From positions 1-64,000 of the forward strand of contig JAIYDL010000020.1 of NCBI GenBank assembly GCA_027487515.1: DNA of 64,000 nt, written 5' to 3'. Made by a program: the position numbers and the translations under genes. This stretch comes from Pseudomonadota bacterium (GTDB lineage Bacteria; Bdellovibrionota; Bacteriovoracia; Bacteriovoracales; Bacteriovoracaceae). Under the pieces are notes generated by a model. The model was not told the DNA's origin and did no database searches. It saw only the letters and a program-made list of their open reading frames with translations. Positions 30,816 to 42,496 of the stretch are shown piece after piece. Within the stretch, counting starts at the first letter, position 1. Every line of letters begins with the position of its first letter.

Positions 30816-30835
30816 TCTCTCCATTTGGAGAAACG

Positions 30836-30863
30836 AAAGGGCCCTTTACGGGCCCTTTTTTTT
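30836..30863. terminator. bidirectional terminator between rpsD and the secreted-cassette operon
   Basis: AAAGGGCCC (30836-30844) and GGGCCCTTT (30850-30858) form a 9-bp stem with a TTTAC loop, followed by TTTTTTTT on the plus strand. On the minus strand it begins 2 nt after the stop of the last cassette gene and ends in CCCTTTCG, so it can serve both directions. Confidence 0.92.
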
Positions 30864-30865
30864 GG

Positions 30866-31114
30866 CTATTTTTTTAGAATTTTGAGTTTATTAAGAGTTT
30901 TCTCAGGGATCTCGATCGCGAAACTCCTTCCCTGCTTGATCAGAAGGTCCTTCGGAAACACAGACCGAGGGAGGAAGTAGATCTGATTTTCAGAGTCGAT
31001 CACTTTGACCTTCGTGTCACTGAACTCATTTCCGATCTTGCCACGGATGAAGACGTCTCGGCTGGCGTCAGCTGCAGCGGTTAGAGAGATGATAAGGGCG
31101 ATGAGGTAATGCAT
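30866..31114 (-). CDS. small secreted protein, paralogue of 33786-34037
   Basis: 82 aa with signal MHYLIALIISLTAAADA. The mature 65 residues form a compact domain with FIRGKIGNEF, a shared IYFLPRSVFPKDL block and a C-terminal KKLKILKK-like ending. Pairwise comparison with the second copy shows FIRGKI, NEF, V-DS--Q-Y-LPR, FPKD and LKK invariant. No known family is recognised. It follows the 553-aa Cys-domain gene by 1 nt and ends the operon. Confidence 0.82.
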   Translation of the reverse strand: MHYLIALIISLTAAADASRDVFIRGKIGNEFSDTKVKVIDSENQIYFLPRSVFPKDLLIKQGRSFAIEIPEKTLNKLKILKK

Positions 31115-31115
31115 A

Positions 31116-32777
31116 CTATTGCTCCGATGCCTGGCCAGAGAGGATGTTCTTCAATCGCGGGGAAAGGAACTCCCGCTGCTCTTCAGGTGGTTTTTGAGAG
31201 AAGTAACTCATGTCTTTCGTGCAGTTCGCTGCGTTCTGGTCCCCGGCCCCGCAGTACTGAGGCCGACACGTGGACATGCGAATGAAGCGACCTGCACCCT
31301 CGAGCTGGTTACAGATCACATACCCTGTGCAAACACGGGTGCGTGAGGTGCTATTACACCCAGGGGCATTGACGATCCGACGAGGGAGATCTGCGACCCA
31401 CTTACACGAGGATGGATCATAGTTCCGAGGCGCGTTCTCCTGGTCAGTCAGCCCCGTACCCTCCGGATTCTGTCCACCTCCACCGTCTCTGTCGAGGAGG
31501 GTCTGACAGCGCTTTGGATTGAGTGCTGTCCAGGCCTCGGTGTGCGCCGTCAGTGCGAGAGGCTCCTGGGCATCGCGGGTTAATCTCGTGGCCTGCTTAA
31601 TCCGCCGGTCAACAAAGCACGAGCGCCCAGCGGCCTGTTCACGGAGCTCACGAATGCGCTCTGTGGTCAGACAGAAGTCTGCGTCCCGAGGAAAGCGTCC
31701 GCAGAGCTCTCGGTGACGCTTAAGGACCTGATCGAGGTTCGCCTCGATCGCGAGGCGGACTCGGTCTCGGTTTTGGGTCGTCACGGATTCGGCGTCGCCC
31801 TGAATCACCGTTTCGATGCGTGTGACGATCTCATTGGTCAGTTGCTCAAGCTCTGCCTCGAGGGCACGCTTGGCCTCGTCACGTGGGGTTACGACACCTG
31901 CAGTGTTGCCTCGGCGTTCGGCATCTGCTTGAGTCAGAGCATCGCCTTCGACTCTATTTGGCGTGGCCTCATCTTCAGAGCTATCAGGATTATTTTCAGT
32001 CCGGCCCGGGTTTTCAGTTTGCGTCCGGTTTGGGTTCTCCGTTTGAGTCCGGTTTGGGTTCTCCGTTTGAGTCCGGTTCGGGTTCTCCGTTTGCGTTCGG
32101 TTCGGGTTCTCCGTTTGCGTTCGGTTCTGGTTCTCCGTTTGCGTCCGTGTCGGGTTCTCCGTTTGCGTTCGGTTCGGATTCTCCGTTTGCGTTCGGTTCG
32201 GAGTTTCAGTTTGGTCGCCTCCAGGTGTGACCGTTAAACCACCCGTCGATGGGCCACTTCCTCCCCTCTCCGTCACTCTCTCAGAAGTCTCCCCACTACG
32301 ACCAGTCCGGCCGGCCTCTGATCCGGTGGTCCCTGATGATCCACCTCGAGGCGTCTCCGTCTGACCCGCTGGTCTTCGAGCTTCAGTCTGCTCATACTCT
32401 TGAGCGCGTCGTCGGATCTCGGCCGCAGAGAGGCCTTCTCGGAGCCATCCGTTTCGCCGCTCCTCAACACCCTTGGCGATCCGGACCTGGGACTCAAGGA
32501 CTCGGCGCTGGTGACTGGTGAGACAGTTTGTGGGAGGGGTTCTTCGGCAGTACTCCTGGTGGAGTTCGGTGACTCGTTGTTGGTACTGGTCCCAGGCCCG
32601 TGCGTGTTCGGGGAGGTAGCGGTCGTTGGGTTGGTTTGCGCGCCACTGGACTCGCGCCCGCGCCTGCATCAGTTCATCATCACGTTGCGTGTCGAGTGCC
32701 CTGAGCCGTGTCTGGAAGTCCTCGGCGCAGATCGCACTCGCGGGGAGCAAGAGAATGAGGATTGAGAGAAAGCGCAT
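31116..32777 (-). CDS. secreted protein with C-terminal seven-Cys domain and long Asn-Arg-Thr-Gln repeat
   Basis: 553 aa with signal MRFLSILILLLPASAICA. After the signal comes a helical Arg/Gln-rich region to about residue 140, a Gly/Ser/Thr linker, eight copies of an eight-residue repeat of type NPNRTQTE (about 192-255), a second helical domain with DFC and SCF cysteines (about 300-420), and a C-terminal domain with CKWV, PGC, VCTG, STC, QYCG and NCTK cysteines. The last domain is shared with the two upstream neighbours. The repeat is predicted to be disordered and glycosylation-prone. The function is unknown. Confidence 0.8.
   Translation of the reverse strand: MRFLSILILLLPASAICAEDFQTRLRALDTQRDDELMQARARVQWRANQPNDRYLPEHARAWDQYQQRVTELHQEYCRRTPPTNCLTSHQRRVLESQVRIAKGVEERRNGWLREGLSAAEIRRRAQEYEQTEARRPAGQTETPRGGSSGTTGSEAGRTGRSGETSERVTERGGSGPSTGGLTVTPGGDQTETPNRTQTENPNRTQTENPTRTQTENQNRTQTENPNRTQTENPNRTQTENPNRTQTENPNRTQTENPGRTENNPDSSEDEATPNRVEGDALTQADAERRGNTAGVVTPRDEAKRALEAELEQLTNEIVTRIETVIQGDAESVTTQNRDRVRLAIEANLDQVLKRHRELCGRFPRDADFCLTTERIRELREQAAGRSCFVDRRIKQATRLTRDAQEPLALTAHTEAWTALNPKRCQTLLDRDGGGGQNPEGTGLTDQENAPRNYDPSSCKWVADLPRRIVNAPGCNSTSRTRVCTGYVICNQLEGAGRFIRMSTCRPQYCGAGDQNAANCTKDMSYFSQKPPEEQREFLSPRLKNILSGQASEQ
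32013..32204 (-). repeat. 24-bp tandem repeat, eight copies
   Basis: Eight copies of a 24-nt unit encode eight residues each (consensus NPNRTQTE, with variants TPN, NPT and NQN). Third positions differ between copies, so it is an older array with point changes rather than a fresh expansion. Slippage could alter copy number between strains without shifting the frame. Confidence 0.9.
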
Positions 32778-32900
32778 AGTGGTCCTTAGAGATAAGTTTA
32801 ACCACTATGCGTATCGGACGAAGAAAGGACAATTCAAGAAGCGAGAAACTGAGTAACACAGTTGTACGCTCAACGGCGTGCAACCCTCACACTGATTCGC

Positions 32901-33755
32901 CTACTGGCGACTCCCTCTTCCCGAGAGACGCTCACCCAGTTGAGGCGAAACAGTATCCCGAGTTTCATCACTCGGCCGGGAGGAAGAAAAGTTCATATCC
33001 TGAGTACAACGGACAGCGTTTTCATCTCCGGATCCACAGAACTCAGAGCGACAGGTGGACAGTCGGATGAACTTACCTTCTCCTTCGCTTCGGTCACAGC
33101 TGACGAATCCAGTACAGATTCGGTTTCGAGCACCAGCGGTGCACCCGGGAGCATTAATGATCCGACGAGGAAGATCGGTCACCCACTTACAGGTTTCCGG
33201 CTTAATGGTGCGGAGCTGGGTGTTGGGTGTTTGCGCCGTAGGTTCTGCTGGTGGTGGCGACACCTGAGAGGGTGGTATTGGAGGCACCGGGAGCGCCGCA
33301 GCCTCGGCGGGCACCGTCCGTGCACGGCCAAAGTTGCTGGTATCTCTTCTAAGAAGAGCATTACAGTTTCCGCGGGACTGGGACCAGTCCAGGGAGTGGC
33401 GCTCGAAAGAGAGCGAGAATCTTCCCCGACGTCGATCGGGGCCAGAGGCCCGACCTTCCCAGCGCTTCAGAAAACAATCCGAGGAGCTAAGTCTTTCGTC
33501 CACCCGAAGGGCCTCGAGACACCCCTCGGTCCTAGCTTGGCGGCAGAGGGCCGTTGCACGCTGACGGAGTTCCGCGGCCCGTCGGCGGTACTGGACCTGG
33601 GTATCATCAAAATTCGAATGATCCATGCGGGAAAGCACCGATTCGGTGAGAACTCCAAACAAGCGGTCCATCTCGGTTATAGCGACTTCAGGCGCCGACG
33701 CCCGGGAGTGGGTATGAGAGAGAAGGAGTAGGAAAGAGAAAGCGATTTTATACAC
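32901..33755 (-). CDS. secreted protein with seven-Cys C-terminal domain
   Basis: 284 aa with signal MYKIAFSFLLLLSHTHSRA. An N-terminal helical domain carries a CRQ/GCLEAL Cys pair and a FSLSFERHSLDW block. A Pro-rich linker follows (about 165-185), then the shared domain: TCKWVTDLPRR, NAPGC, RICTGF, STC, EFCG and RCTQDM. The N-terminal domain also resembles its neighbours at RFSLS, the W and the C-ALL motif, so these are full-length paralogues. The function is unknown. A 289-aa antisense frame is a shadow of this gene. Confidence 0.8.
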   Translation of the reverse strand: MYKIAFSFLLLLSHTHSRASAPEVAITEMDRLFGVLTESVLSRMDHSNFDDTQVQYRRRAAELRQRATALCRQARTEGCLEALRVDERLSSSDCFLKRWEGRASGPDRRRGRFSLSFERHSLDWSQSRGNCNALLRRDTSNFGRARTVPAEAAALPVPPIPPSQVSPPPAEPTAQTPNTQLRTIKPETCKWVTDLPRRIINAPGCTAGARNRICTGFVSCDRSEGEGKFIRLSTCRSEFCGSGDENAVRCTQDMNFSSSRPSDETRDTVSPQLGERLSGRGSRQ

Positions 33756-33785
33756 CGTAGGATCCTTTTAACTAGAAAGTTAGAC

Positions 33786-34037
33786 TTACTTCTTCAGAAG
33801 TTTGATCTGAGAGAGGTGTTCCTCAGAAACTTCGAGCGTGAACGTCTTTCCCTGCTTCACCTCGAAGTCCTTGGGGAACGCCGCTCGGGGCAAATAATAA
33901 ACCTGTTGATCTGAGTCCACGATCTTGATCTTTTGATCGTCGAACTCGTTACTTATTTTTCCTCGAATGAAGACTTCTCCGCCGACGTCAGCATGGGAGA
34001 GGGTCGTAAGGATCAAGAGCGAAATGATGAATTTCAT
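33786..34037 (-). CDS. small secreted protein, paralogue of 30866-31114
   Basis: 83 aa with signal MKFIISLLILTTLSHA. The mature region starts VFIRGKISNEF and keeps YYLPRAAFPKDFEVKQGKT and a LLKK end. It follows the 270-aa Cys-domain gene by 2 nt and precedes the next by about 30 nt. Recurrence of the small protein beside a Cys-domain protein twice in one operon suggests that they form a functional pair, for example a subunit or a chaperone; this is inference. Confidence 0.82.
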   Translation of the reverse strand: MKFIISLLILTTLSHADVGGEVFIRGKISNEFDDQKIKIVDSDQQVYYLPRAAFPKDFEVKQGKTFTLEVSEEHLSQIKLLKK

Positions 34038-34039
34038 AA

Positions 34040-34852
34040 TTACTGCCTCGATGCTCGATTGATTGTTTGGTTAAGCTCAGGCGAAACAGTGTCTCGAGTT
34101 TCTCCCGACGGTCGTGTCGACGAATACCCCATGTCCTGAGTACAGCGGACAGCGTTCTCGTCACCGTTACCGCAGTGCTCGGCTCGGCATGTTGAGAGAC
34201 GAGTAAGTCGAGCGCCCCCCTGGGCCTGTTCGCAGCTCACGAATCCTGTGCAGATTCGGTTTCTGGTGGAGGCCGTACAACCTGGGGAATTGATAAGACG
34301 TCGAGGTAGGTCATTGACCCATTTGCAGGTTTCGGCCTTTAAGCCCCGTAGTTGGACAGATGCTGCAGTAGCAGGAGTTTCAGGGGTTGCCGGTCGTGCT
34401 GGAGTTTCAGCAGGTCTGGCCGTCGGCTCAGGGGCTGCGGGAGTTGGCTCTGGTGCAGGACGGCCTGTACCTGGAGGTGCTCGTCGGTCATCTATGGCCA
34501 ACAAGGCTTCACAACTATTTTCCTGCGGTGCTGTCATCCACTGAGTTACGTGAGTTCGAGCGGAGAGAGAAAATCTGGTATTAGGAACATCGGAATTCAG
34601 CGCGCGATCGTAACGGTCTTTAAAGCAGGCCCCAACTGGGGTAAATCGAGTCAGACAAGCTGCATCGGTCCTACATATTTCTCTAATTCTTGTTTGAATT
34701 CGTAGGGACGTCGTACCAATGTTTTCCGGTTTAAAGCTATCTCCATTTAAGCCGTCTAAAACTGAAATCATCTGGCGTTCAAAAGCTGGATCTCGCCGGG
34801 CCATCGCTTGAAAGGACTGGGAAATCAGAACAATAAGTACTAGATATCTCAT
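34040..34852 (-). CDS. secreted protein with seven-Cys C-terminal domain
   Basis: 270 aa with signal MRYLVLIVLISQSFQAMA. The N-terminal domain has CRTDAACLTRF and FSLSARTHVTQW, with NSCEALLAID. The linker is a Pro/Ala/Thr stretch (about 135-165). The C-terminal shared domain has seven cysteines: TCKW, SPGC, ICTG, VSC, STC, EHCG and RCTQD. It ends NRASRQ, as do its paralogues (GSRQ, ASEQ). This is the first gene of the five-gene cluster, with a 76-nt gap from the small histidine-kinase-like gene. Confidence 0.8.
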   Translation of the reverse strand: MRYLVLIVLISQSFQAMARRDPAFERQMISVLDGLNGDSFKPENIGTTSLRIQTRIREICRTDAACLTRFTPVGACFKDRYDRALNSDVPNTRFSLSARTHVTQWMTAPQENSCEALLAIDDRRAPPGTGRPAPEPTPAAPEPTARPAETPARPATPETPATAASVQLRGLKAETCKWVNDLPRRLINSPGCTASTRNRICTGFVSCEQAQGGARLTRLSTCRAEHCGNGDENAVRCTQDMGYSSTRPSGETRDTVSPELNQTINRASRQ

Positions 34853-34928: not shown

Positions 34929-35159
34929 TTATTCTGTACTGCCGGAATCGGCTACAGAATGAACATGCTCTCGGAGCTGTTTAAGTGTATGTATTGATTT
35001 TTTCACGTGCTCATCTGCCTTGCGTAACCTCTGTATCTCATCCGCCAACTGCGGGTGACTACGAGACATAAGGGTGATGACTCTCGTGAGTGAAGCATCA
35101 ATCACTGAAAAAGAGTTCGCAAGATCGTGAATATACTTGCGGGTTTCGTCAAAACTCAT
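34929..35159 (-). CDS. small protein resembling a histidine-kinase dimerisation helix
   Basis: 76 aa, entirely helical, with no signal or membrane segment. It begins MSFDETRKYIHDLANSFSVI: an H-D-L-A-N-x-F pattern like the phospho-acceptor H-box of histidine kinases (HDLNN or HELRN types). It continues with a charged coiled coil (EIQRLRKADEHVKK). There is no ATPase domain. It could be an orphan phosphotransfer or DHp-type domain, or simply a helical protein. It is the last gene of the oxidase locus, 48 nt after subunit IV. Confidence 0.6.
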   Translation of the reverse strand: MSFDETRKYIHDLANSFSVIDASLTRVITLMSRSHPQLADEIQRLRKADEHVKKSIHTLKQLREHVHSVADSGSTE

Positions 35160-40364: not shown

Positions 40365-42080
40365 TTAGCGCAGCACCAGGAGGATGCCGAGGATCAATGG
40401 GAGGTAAAAGAGGGTCCCAAAAAAATAGATCCTGGCCCAGATCTTCTGCCGATGCTCGTCTCTCATGAAGAGGCCAATGACCGCCAGACTCAAGAGAATG
40501 ACACTGATCATCAGAGAGCCCCAGAGGTAGCCCTCTCCCCTCCAGTTGGCCAAATAAGGAATGAATCCGAACAGCATCAGGAGGAGGCTATAGAGGATAA
40601 TGTTCCACCGCAAAAAGGAGAAAGAATGAGTCTGAGCGAAGGTCACAAAACGAGCGGAGCTGTACTCTGATTTGCGGTACAGGCTGATGGCCATGAAATG
40701 GGGAATCTGCCACAGGAAGAGGATCCCAAAGAGGTAGACCCCGAAACCACCCAGGCCGTTCGTGGTGAGAGTCCACCCCATGAGAGTCGGGATCGCCCCA
40801 GGTATGGCACCTAGGTAAAGGGCGTAGGGTGTTTTCAGCTTAAGTGGGGTGTAAACATAAAGATAAGAGAGAGCAGCGAAGAGGCCCAAAAGAGCTGTCA
40901 AAAGATTGGCGGTAGCCATGAGAATGAGGGTCCCGCAGGCAATCAGGGACCATCCCCAAATTAGGGCCACCCGAGGTTCCAGGCGTCCTGCCGGAAGAGG
41001 CCTATCCTTCGTCCTATCCATGAGCCGATCGAGGTCTCGCTCGATGTACGAATTCAACGCCAAGCTGCCGGCGGCCTGCAACCAGATAGCGACAAGAGAA
41101 ACGAGAAGGAAGATGAGGTTCAATCCCAAGGGTGCCAGGAGGACGCCCACGAGCAAGGTGATCACCACGAGGATGGTGAGCTTTGGTTTAAAGAGGTCAA
41201 GGAGATCGTTCAGATGGGTCGGAACTGGCCTCCCAAAAAAGTGGTACTCGTAGCGGCGCAGTCGCAGGATTAAAAATAGGAGAACCATGAACGAACCGAG
41301 GGCGGCCGTGAAGTGCCAGAAGATCAACTCCCGAGACGAGCTTCGCCCCATCTGCAGGCCCAGCAGGAGCTGACAAACCATCAGGGCAGTTCCGAAGACG
41401 GCGGCCGACTTCCACCGGGGAAGGTGCTTGGCGAGGTAGCTAAAAACGAAGAGGCCCCCGAGGGTGGTTAAGATTCCAAACGAGCGGTGAATGAGGGAGA
41501 GGCTTCCGGCCAGGGGAATCTGACTTTGGAGCTTCCAGCACGCCCAAAAATCAAGCGAGGCCTCGCAGCTCGCAAGGAGAGAGGACTTCCGGAGAATGCC
41601 ACCAAGGATGAACTGGAAGAGGAGGAGGAAGAGAAAAAATCCGGTGACGTCCTTGAGCTTCGGGTTCCAGGTCGAGCGGAGTGCGCTGTCGAAAGAAAGT
41701 GCGCGGGTTCCCTCGAGGGAAGCGAGGTAGAGCAAAGAAAAGATAAGATGGAGCACCGTCGTCACGGTGGGAAGCTTATACGTGAACGTCGCCCACCCCA
41801 AAAGGGACTGCAAAACGATCAGGAAGACTGGAAGGAGGGCCTTGCCTCGGAGGTCACGGAATCGGGCCACGGCCCAGACGAGGCTGCCGACTCCGAGAAG
41901 GCCCGCGAGGAAGCGGTGGAGCGATTCGTAGAAGGCGGGGCCCATGATCAGAGGATGAAACTCACCGTAGCAGAGGGGCCAGTCGGGGCAAACGAGCGCG
42001 GACTTTAGCACCTGTAGCTGGGCCCCGATGAGGAGAACCACCACAGTGCCCAGATAAAGAAGGTAGAAAAGAAAGGTCAT
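40365..42080 (-). CDS. fused heme A synthase (CtaA) and heme O synthase (CtaB)
   Basis: 571 aa from ATG 42080, whose ATGA overlaps the DUF420 stop; the 34-codon extension is dropped. Residues 1-280 are CtaA, with the CPDWPLCYG signature at 31-39 and heme-ligand histidines 55, 111, 198 and 256. From about 290 comes CtaB, with LFKPKLT at 296-302 and the prenyl motif NSYIERDLDRLMDRT near 343 (Glu347 at the usual first Asp) and PLPAG. One polypeptide would farnesylate heme B and oxidise heme O to heme A. The fusion order is the reverse of the reaction order. Confidence 0.94.
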   Translation of the reverse strand: MTFLFYLLYLGTVVVLLIGAQLQVLKSALVCPDWPLCYGEFHPLIMGPAFYESLHRFLAGLLGVGSLVWAVARFRDLRGKALLPVFLIVLQSLLGWATFTYKLPTVTTVLHLIFSLLYLASLEGTRALSFDSALRSTWNPKLKDVTGFFLFLLLFQFILGGILRKSSLLASCEASLDFWACWKLQSQIPLAGSLSLIHRSFGILTTLGGLFVFSYLAKHLPRWKSAAVFGTALMVCQLLLGLQMGRSSSRELIFWHFTAALGSFMVLLFLILRLRRYEYHFFGRPVPTHLNDLLDLFKPKLTILVVITLLVGVLLAPLGLNLIFLLVSLVAIWLQAAGSLALNSYIERDLDRLMDRTKDRPLPAGRLEPRVALIWGWSLIACGTLILMATANLLTALLGLFAALSYLYVYTPLKLKTPYALYLGAIPGAIPTLMGWTLTTNGLGGFGVYLFGILFLWQIPHFMAISLYRKSEYSSARFVTFAQTHSFSFLRWNIILYSLLLMLFGFIPYLANWRGEGYLWGSLMISVILLSLAVIGLFMRDEHRQKIWARIYFFGTLFYLPLILGILLVLR

Positions 42081-42496
42081 GGGAACCAGACGTAGAGCAT
42101 CAAGTAGACAAGGACCCCAGTGACCGAAACGTACATCCAAATCGGAAACGTAATCCGAGCAATCTTTTTGTGCTTCTCCCACTCCTGGCGGTAAGCGTGC
42201 CAGAAGGTTTTCAGAATCATCGGTACCATCAGCGCCGCGAGGATGATGTGGGGGATGAGAATGACGAGGTAGACGGTTTTAATGAAGCCCAGATCCGGGA
42301 ACTTTTTCGAGGGTACGTGGTAGTGGTAGATCAAGTAGCTCGTCAGAAACGCTGCCGAAACCACAAGTGCCGAAACCATCAATCCCCGGTGAAGATCCCG
42401 GTGCTTCTTTTTAATTGCAATGTATCCAGAGAGGAGAAGGACACCGGCCACAGTGTTGAGGCAGGCATTAAGGGTTGGCAGATCCTGGATTGTCAT
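42077..42496 (-). CDS. DUF420 membrane protein (CtaM-like)
   Basis: 139 aa with four predicted helices and family motifs LNTVAGVLLLSGY, KHRDLHRGLM and the His-rich TSYLIYHYHV and IPHIILA. The Firmicute relative CtaM is needed for heme-copper aa3 oxidase maturation; that role here is inferred from family and operon position. It overlaps the small upstream gene by 29 nt and the CtaAB start by 4 nt. Confidence 0.87.
   Translation of the reverse strand: MTIQDLPTLNACLNTVAGVLLLSGYIAIKKKHRDLHRGLMVSALVVSAAFLTSYLIYHYHVPSKKFPDLGFIKTVYLVILIPHIILAALMVPMILKTFWHAYRQEWEKHKKIARITFPIWMYVSVTGVLVYLMLYVWFP

Follow-up and report, generated by a model that had tools for sequence, protein, structure and literature searches.

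The window, the whole 64,000-nucleotide stretch analysed here, encodes three exported cysteine-rich proteins (CysA, CysB and CysC) and two small exported proteins (smallA and smallC), and the Cys and small proteins are one co-inherited unit that recurs in dozens of genomes of the phylum. Secreted proteins that have a small partner of their own are, as an arrangement, of a known kind; both families appear to be undescribed, and so does the present combination, in which the Cys domain is C-terminal and constant and the partner is exported and lacks cysteine. Back-to-back translation, joint inheritance, one natural fusion, and conservation centred on cysteines and likely structural residues mean that the two proteins are best read as binding partners. 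What had been scattered hypothetical proteins thus becomes a concrete, testable pair, with a set of 40 paired loci.

The five-gene locus and its products

In the list of open reading frames, the five genes lie on the minus strand, running from 34852 to 30866 in the order CysA, smallA, CysB, CysC, smallC. The sequence-only reading had described five exported genes on one strand in this order and of these sizes, and all of the frames were found where it had placed them.

34852-34040, minus strand: CysA, 270 aa, exported; N-terminal Cys region, C-terminal seven-Cys domain and tail
34118-34327, minus strand: seven-Cys core of CysA (profile A10 match)
34037-33786, minus strand: smallA, 83 aa, exported, cysteine-free; partner gene of CysA
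33755-32901, minus strand: CysB, 284 aa, GTG start, exported; architecture like that of CysA; without a small gene of its own
33336-33695, minus strand: helical Cys region at the N-terminus of CysB, about residues 21-140 (alignment and low-confidence model)
32982-33191, minus strand: seven-Cys core of CysB (profile A10 match)
32777-31116, minus strand: CysC, 553 aa, exported; of the three, the one most like the gene that related genomes carry in single copy
31999-32213, minus strand: NRTQTENP tandem array of CysC, 9 x 24 bp
31197-31406, minus strand: seven-Cys core of CysC (profile A10 match)
31114-30866, minus strand: smallC, 82 aa, exported, cysteine-free; partner gene of CysC
30835-30859, no strand assigned: inverted repeat resembling an intrinsic terminator, with smallC on one side and the convergent rpsD on the other, scored on the plus strand

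Each small gene had been said to follow a Cys gene at 1-2 nt, which is borne out by CysA-smallA (2 nt) and CysC-smallC (1 nt); the other gaps measure 30 nt (smallA-CysB) and 123 nt (CysB-CysC). Three Cys genes face two small genes, however, and CysB is unpaired. All five proteins open with an apparent signal peptide, as read by eye. A scan of the locus found promoter-like sites in numbers not above those of shuffled sequence, and this, together with the terminator-like repeat, makes a single operon of five genes plausible. The genome from which the window comes has the Cys domain at this locus only, and likewise the small protein, two noise-level matches (E 0.7-0.9) aside. Comparison with the related genome G088 gave dN/dS values of 0.05-0.10 where dS was measurable, a sign of purifying selection, so the genes are not chance reading frames. 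Positive selection is rejected for the measurable genes, whose dN/dS lies well under 1; CysA, with its saturated dS, stands outside this verdict.

Alignment confirmed that a seven-Cys domain and a C-terminal tail are common to all three larger proteins. The C-terminal pattern reads CKWV.DLPRR .. PGC .. R.CTG.V.C .. R.STCR .. CG..D.NA..CT.DM, with seven invariant cysteines, and the tail ends in SRQ or SEQ. The related N-terminal domain that had also been claimed is likewise common to all three, but its likeness is weaker, and in CysC the copy is internal, lying behind the NRTQTENP array. When the cores are aligned across families, six cysteines remain invariant (C1, then C3-x5-C4, C5, C6 and C7); C2, which in the window proteins is the cysteine of the PGC motif, is absent from several families and is thus the odd, optional one. 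Conservation of the domain is almost confined to cysteines and likely structural residues, the wider family carrying quite different residues between the cysteines from those of the window proteins, and this suits a binding or scaffold domain better than an enzyme. None of the domain's invariant or almost invariant columns is a histidine. A low-confidence model of CysB (pLDDT 56) predicts a helical N-terminal region and a Cys domain made of a short sheet and a helix; it found no match when compared with known structures. The modest quality of the structure models reflects the few input sequences, six for CysB and four for smallC.

Neither smallA nor smallC contains a cysteine, and the mature small protein is about 65 aa long. 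The description of the two as near-identical holds for their pattern and not for their sequence, in which they are 51% identical. The smallC model (mean pLDDT 73) places strands at 20-31, 35-40, 45-49 and 64-70, followed by a C-terminal helix. Foldseek searches with this modest-confidence model gave a best match at E 0.009 and none below E 0.001, listed many OB folds, and aligned it with the RsgI1 domain at a target-normalised TM of 0.66 and an rmsd of 1.7 over 48 columns. With modest confidence, the small protein is modelled as a small beta-barrel, a candidate for the five-stranded OB/SH3-like type.

Searches of Pfam, NCBIfam, PHROGs and PADLOC placed neither protein in a family above a curated cut-off, returning only scattered weak matches to unrelated families; the best hit among PDB sequences was at E 0.21, and the Cys core profile had none there. 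A search of the open literature yielded no description of either family, and one candidate lead, PMC12750041, proved unrelated. The earlier statement that no described family fits thus agrees with these searches, in which a confident match to a characterised family was found for neither half.

Recurrence of the pair

The sensitive search covered one phylum, represented by 369 genomes, of which 26 belong to the window's genus. A Cys profile built from the three window genes matched 14 of the 369, 11 of them in the genus (11/26), and at every clear locus a small gene lay directly 3' of a Cys gene; G184, with a weak match, carries no such pair. Starting instead from the small protein, a profile of 15 sequences reached 27 genomes in 16 genera, and a wider one of 20 sequences reached 73 genomes in 42 genera, a count that includes probable signal-peptide matches; wide-profile matches covering only about positions 1-45 were discarded as such. 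By reading, the gene 5' of the small gene encodes an exported Cys-rich protein in 15 of 18 unfused loci. A Cys-core profile extended the larger family to 43 genomes in 27 genera, and among 19 of its loci that had not been used before, the Cys gene was followed by a small gene in ten, was part of a fusion in one, was accompanied by another small exported protein in four and had no small gene that could be found in four. That the Cys and the small profile, each used alone, lead to the other half supports the partner reading, and the recurrence of the pairing in other genomes, which had been proposed as its test, was seen in other genera and families. By an automatic rule (small gene within 400 nt, E < 0.001), 33 of 54 Cys genes have a small gene nearby, against 20 of 764 other open reading frames of at least 100 aa in the same loci. 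The rule scores as a miss any Cys gene that comes second in an operon, is fused or has a diverged partner, and the background of 20/764 is inflated because the loci were picked for carrying such genes.

In all, 40 distinct Cys-then-small pairs were assembled from several families of the phylum, and their gene neighbourhoods are unrelated, which also favours the partner reading. By the script's measure their spacing is mostly 0-7 nt, and three pairs lie more than 100 nt apart. In those three, from three genomes of two genera, an exported four-cysteine protein of 67-77 aa sits in between (L136:589-813, L140:2606-2836, L179:1708-1908) and is possibly a third component. Some operons contain a single small gene for two Cys genes. 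In G352, a single protein of 404 aa is matched by both profiles, with the small domain at 10-82 and the Cys core at 330-380; this fusion argues for contact between the halves, and it is the only one counted because both profiles detect it. Three further candidates, G040-G042, were left out of the count, since only their small domain scores well and their Cys end is a by-eye pattern at E 0.35 or worse.

Evolutionary distances within the two halves are correlated (Mantel r 0.89 within the genus and 0.67 among the 27 pairs from beyond it, values not reached in 2000 permutations), and since shared ancestry contributes, the correlation speaks for co-inheritance and not for contact. Several observations weigh against the dedicated-partner reading. 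Besides that share of common ancestry in the co-divergence and the weakness of the structure models, there are four Cys loci with no small gene found nearby (G060, G021, G277, G320), three small-profile matches without a Cys neighbour (L133, L134, L139), and G105, where the Cys and small genes lie on opposite strands. Four more genomes have, in the position where the small gene would follow the Cys gene, an exported protein of about 90-110 aa that is either different or very diverged (L186:2225-2503, L193:1670-1954, L176:2463-2792, L191:2270-2533); by eye, those of L186 and L193 look alike.

Genomic setting and possible roles

Within the genus, the usual site of the pair is between a 76-aa gene, which follows an oxidase operon, and rpsD. 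Four relatives (G086, G087, G081 and G080) carry one long Cys gene and one small gene there, and in G082 the pair follows the same oxidase genes with another gene beyond. The additional CysA-smallA-CysB unit is found in the window genome and in G088, whose contigs end at the repeat region.

34929-35159 of the window: gene of 76 aa that separates the oxidase operon from the Cys genes; most relatives, including G089, keep a copy, 65-90% identical; no credible Pfam match

This synteny, seen in the window genome and several genus relatives, is what favours a role for the pair as an accessory of cytochrome oxidase assembly, its genes following COX1, COX2, COX4 and SCO1. Against it, the pair stands among unrelated genes elsewhere, both in the genus (G093, G097) and outside it (G067, G183), and the site in G089 holds a COX4-like gene, the 76-aa gene and rpsD without the pair. 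We consider the accessory role extremely improbable and largely refuted by these other contexts and the empty site, and the oxidase genes are taken to be no more than the usual insertion site in the genus. The window also encodes, at 40368-42182, a protein of 605 aa whose N-terminal half matches COX15-CtaA and whose C-terminal half matches UbiA prenyltransferase, so that two steps of haem a synthesis appear to be fused in it.

Other associations were examined and set aside. Phage or plasmid cargo was rejected, the CysB domain being unmatched in phages and smallC unmatched in plasmids (one query each). A transglutaminase link, suggested by a TGase_elicitor neighbour in G095, was likewise dropped: the small reading frame there has no proper start and is remnant-like, which makes that neighbour weak evidence. 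In four genomes of the genus (G081, G082, G086 and G087), an exported protein of 230-234 aa begins at the end of the small gene; it has no Pfam match, and its identity as a thioredoxin helper was rejected because the likeness is non-significant (E 0.5).

L031:9139-9828, L032:3666-4367, L033:9525-10214, L034:7911-8600: exported 230-234-aa protein

Across the family, variable N-termini are joined to a constant Cys end. In the window's genus the N-terminus is the helical Cys region; in G255 it consists of a signal-peptide-like start and ankyrin repeats (L129:126-1427, L177:1073-2137), in G097 of a CFxGGWP-type Cys region and in G060 of a sub-threshold FecR match, while L179, L187, L189 and L190 have almost no N-terminal part. 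The Cys-rich region CFxGGWP ... CNPxLFG recurs without a Pfam match (L131:624-2453, L095:4495-5775, L142:2200-3507, L143:1383-2699, L123:235-1716), in one genome N-terminal to the Cys domain and in others preceded by a small domain fused at the N-terminus. Of 54 Cys proteins, 31 end in Q or N, compared with 15% of other genes; as a putative C-terminal tail motif this sequence feature is suggestive, with relatedness as a confounder.

With the Cys end constant and the N-terminus variable, the pair probably forms the end by which varied secreted proteins are folded, escorted or docked. The reading that we rank first, tentatively and at somewhat less than an even chance, is that the small protein serves as the dedicated partner of the Cys domain in the envelope, in folding, escort or docking. 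Both proteins would be exported, and the six core cysteines would pair in the periplasm; the small protein would bind the Cys domain, perhaps together with the tail, and would thereby fold, escort or dock the larger protein, whose variable N-terminus may do the actual work. Escort or docking is placed first because two Cys genes often have one small gene between them, a pattern more natural for a common helper than for an inhibitor that works one-to-one. A bolder form of the idea, which we think unlikely, is that the Cys domain and tail constitute a portable module at the C-terminus that serves export, sorting or surface docking; the small partner would read it, and many unrelated N-terminal parts would use it. 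If it were true, the phylum would possess a previously unrecognised protein-handling system that displays or delivers varied parts, and a Cys domain that docks or sorts would mark a whole secreted repertoire, ankyrin-repeat proteins included.

Alternatively, both proteins might belong permanently, as subunits, to an adhesin or other surface structure, the small one having no chaperone or inhibitor role. Export of both, their joint conservation and the G352 fusion are consistent with such a heterodimer, and the repetitive, low-complexity N-terminal stretches are typical of surface proteins; a single common surface structure becomes less likely, however, in view of the ankyrin-repeat members and those nearly free of an N-terminus, and we assign this explanation only a minor share of belief. 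The phylum contains predators of bacteria, if the assignment to Bdellovibrionota in the sequence-only reading is right. In a further reading, the Cys protein would act outside the cell, on prey or competitors, and its co-encoded partner, itself exported, would block it in the periplasm of the producer. The tight order of effector and then partner points this way, as do the fast divergence of CysA (51% identical to its G088 counterpart, compared with 80-100% for flanking genes) and the patchy occurrence in the genus (11 of 26 genomes). An effector-immunity pair is nevertheless quite doubtful, given a constant Cys end with a comparatively conserved partner, the absence of an enzyme signature, operons in which two Cys genes share one small gene, and dN/dS well below 1 in the measurable pairs; an immunity protein fused to its effector, as G352 would then be, would moreover be unusual.

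Comparison with named systems

In the staphopain-staphostatin and SpeB-Spi systems, a secreted protease is followed directly by the gene of a small inhibitor, and staphostatins are cytoplasmic. The pair described here resembles these systems in that the larger protein is secreted and the small protein encoded immediately after it is a putative beta-barrel. In contrast to staphopain, the larger protein has neither a protease domain nor a conserved histidine (searches returned no protease match), and unlike the staphostatins the small protein is itself exported and has no sequence match to them. The predicted strand order of the small protein is like that of small beta-barrels such as IF-1 and the N-terminal domain of RsgI, whereas those proteins are cytoplasmic and show no sequence relation to it or match below E 0.001.

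Duplicated toxin-partner, adhesin-chaperone or envelope-assembly pairs had been suggested from the sequence. The duplication and a real partnership hold up, the latter through recurrence; the classical toxin and adhesin-chaperone forms do not fit, because no usher or Ig-like chaperone is seen nearby and the C-terminus is constant. As in chaperone-usher adhesins, an exported partner is co-encoded with a secreted protein; unlike their chaperones, the small protein measures about 65 aa when mature and has no Ig-like chaperone match, and the neighbours scanned, which are part of all neighbours, include neither an usher nor an Ig-like chaperone. Polymorphic toxins combine a conserved N-terminal delivery part with an exchangeable C-terminal toxin, and the present pair shares with toxin-immunity loci an exported variable protein with a small gene directly downstream. 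The arrangement is nonetheless the reverse of theirs: the N-terminus varies, the C-terminal Cys domain is constant, and the partner is conserved across the different N-terminal types.
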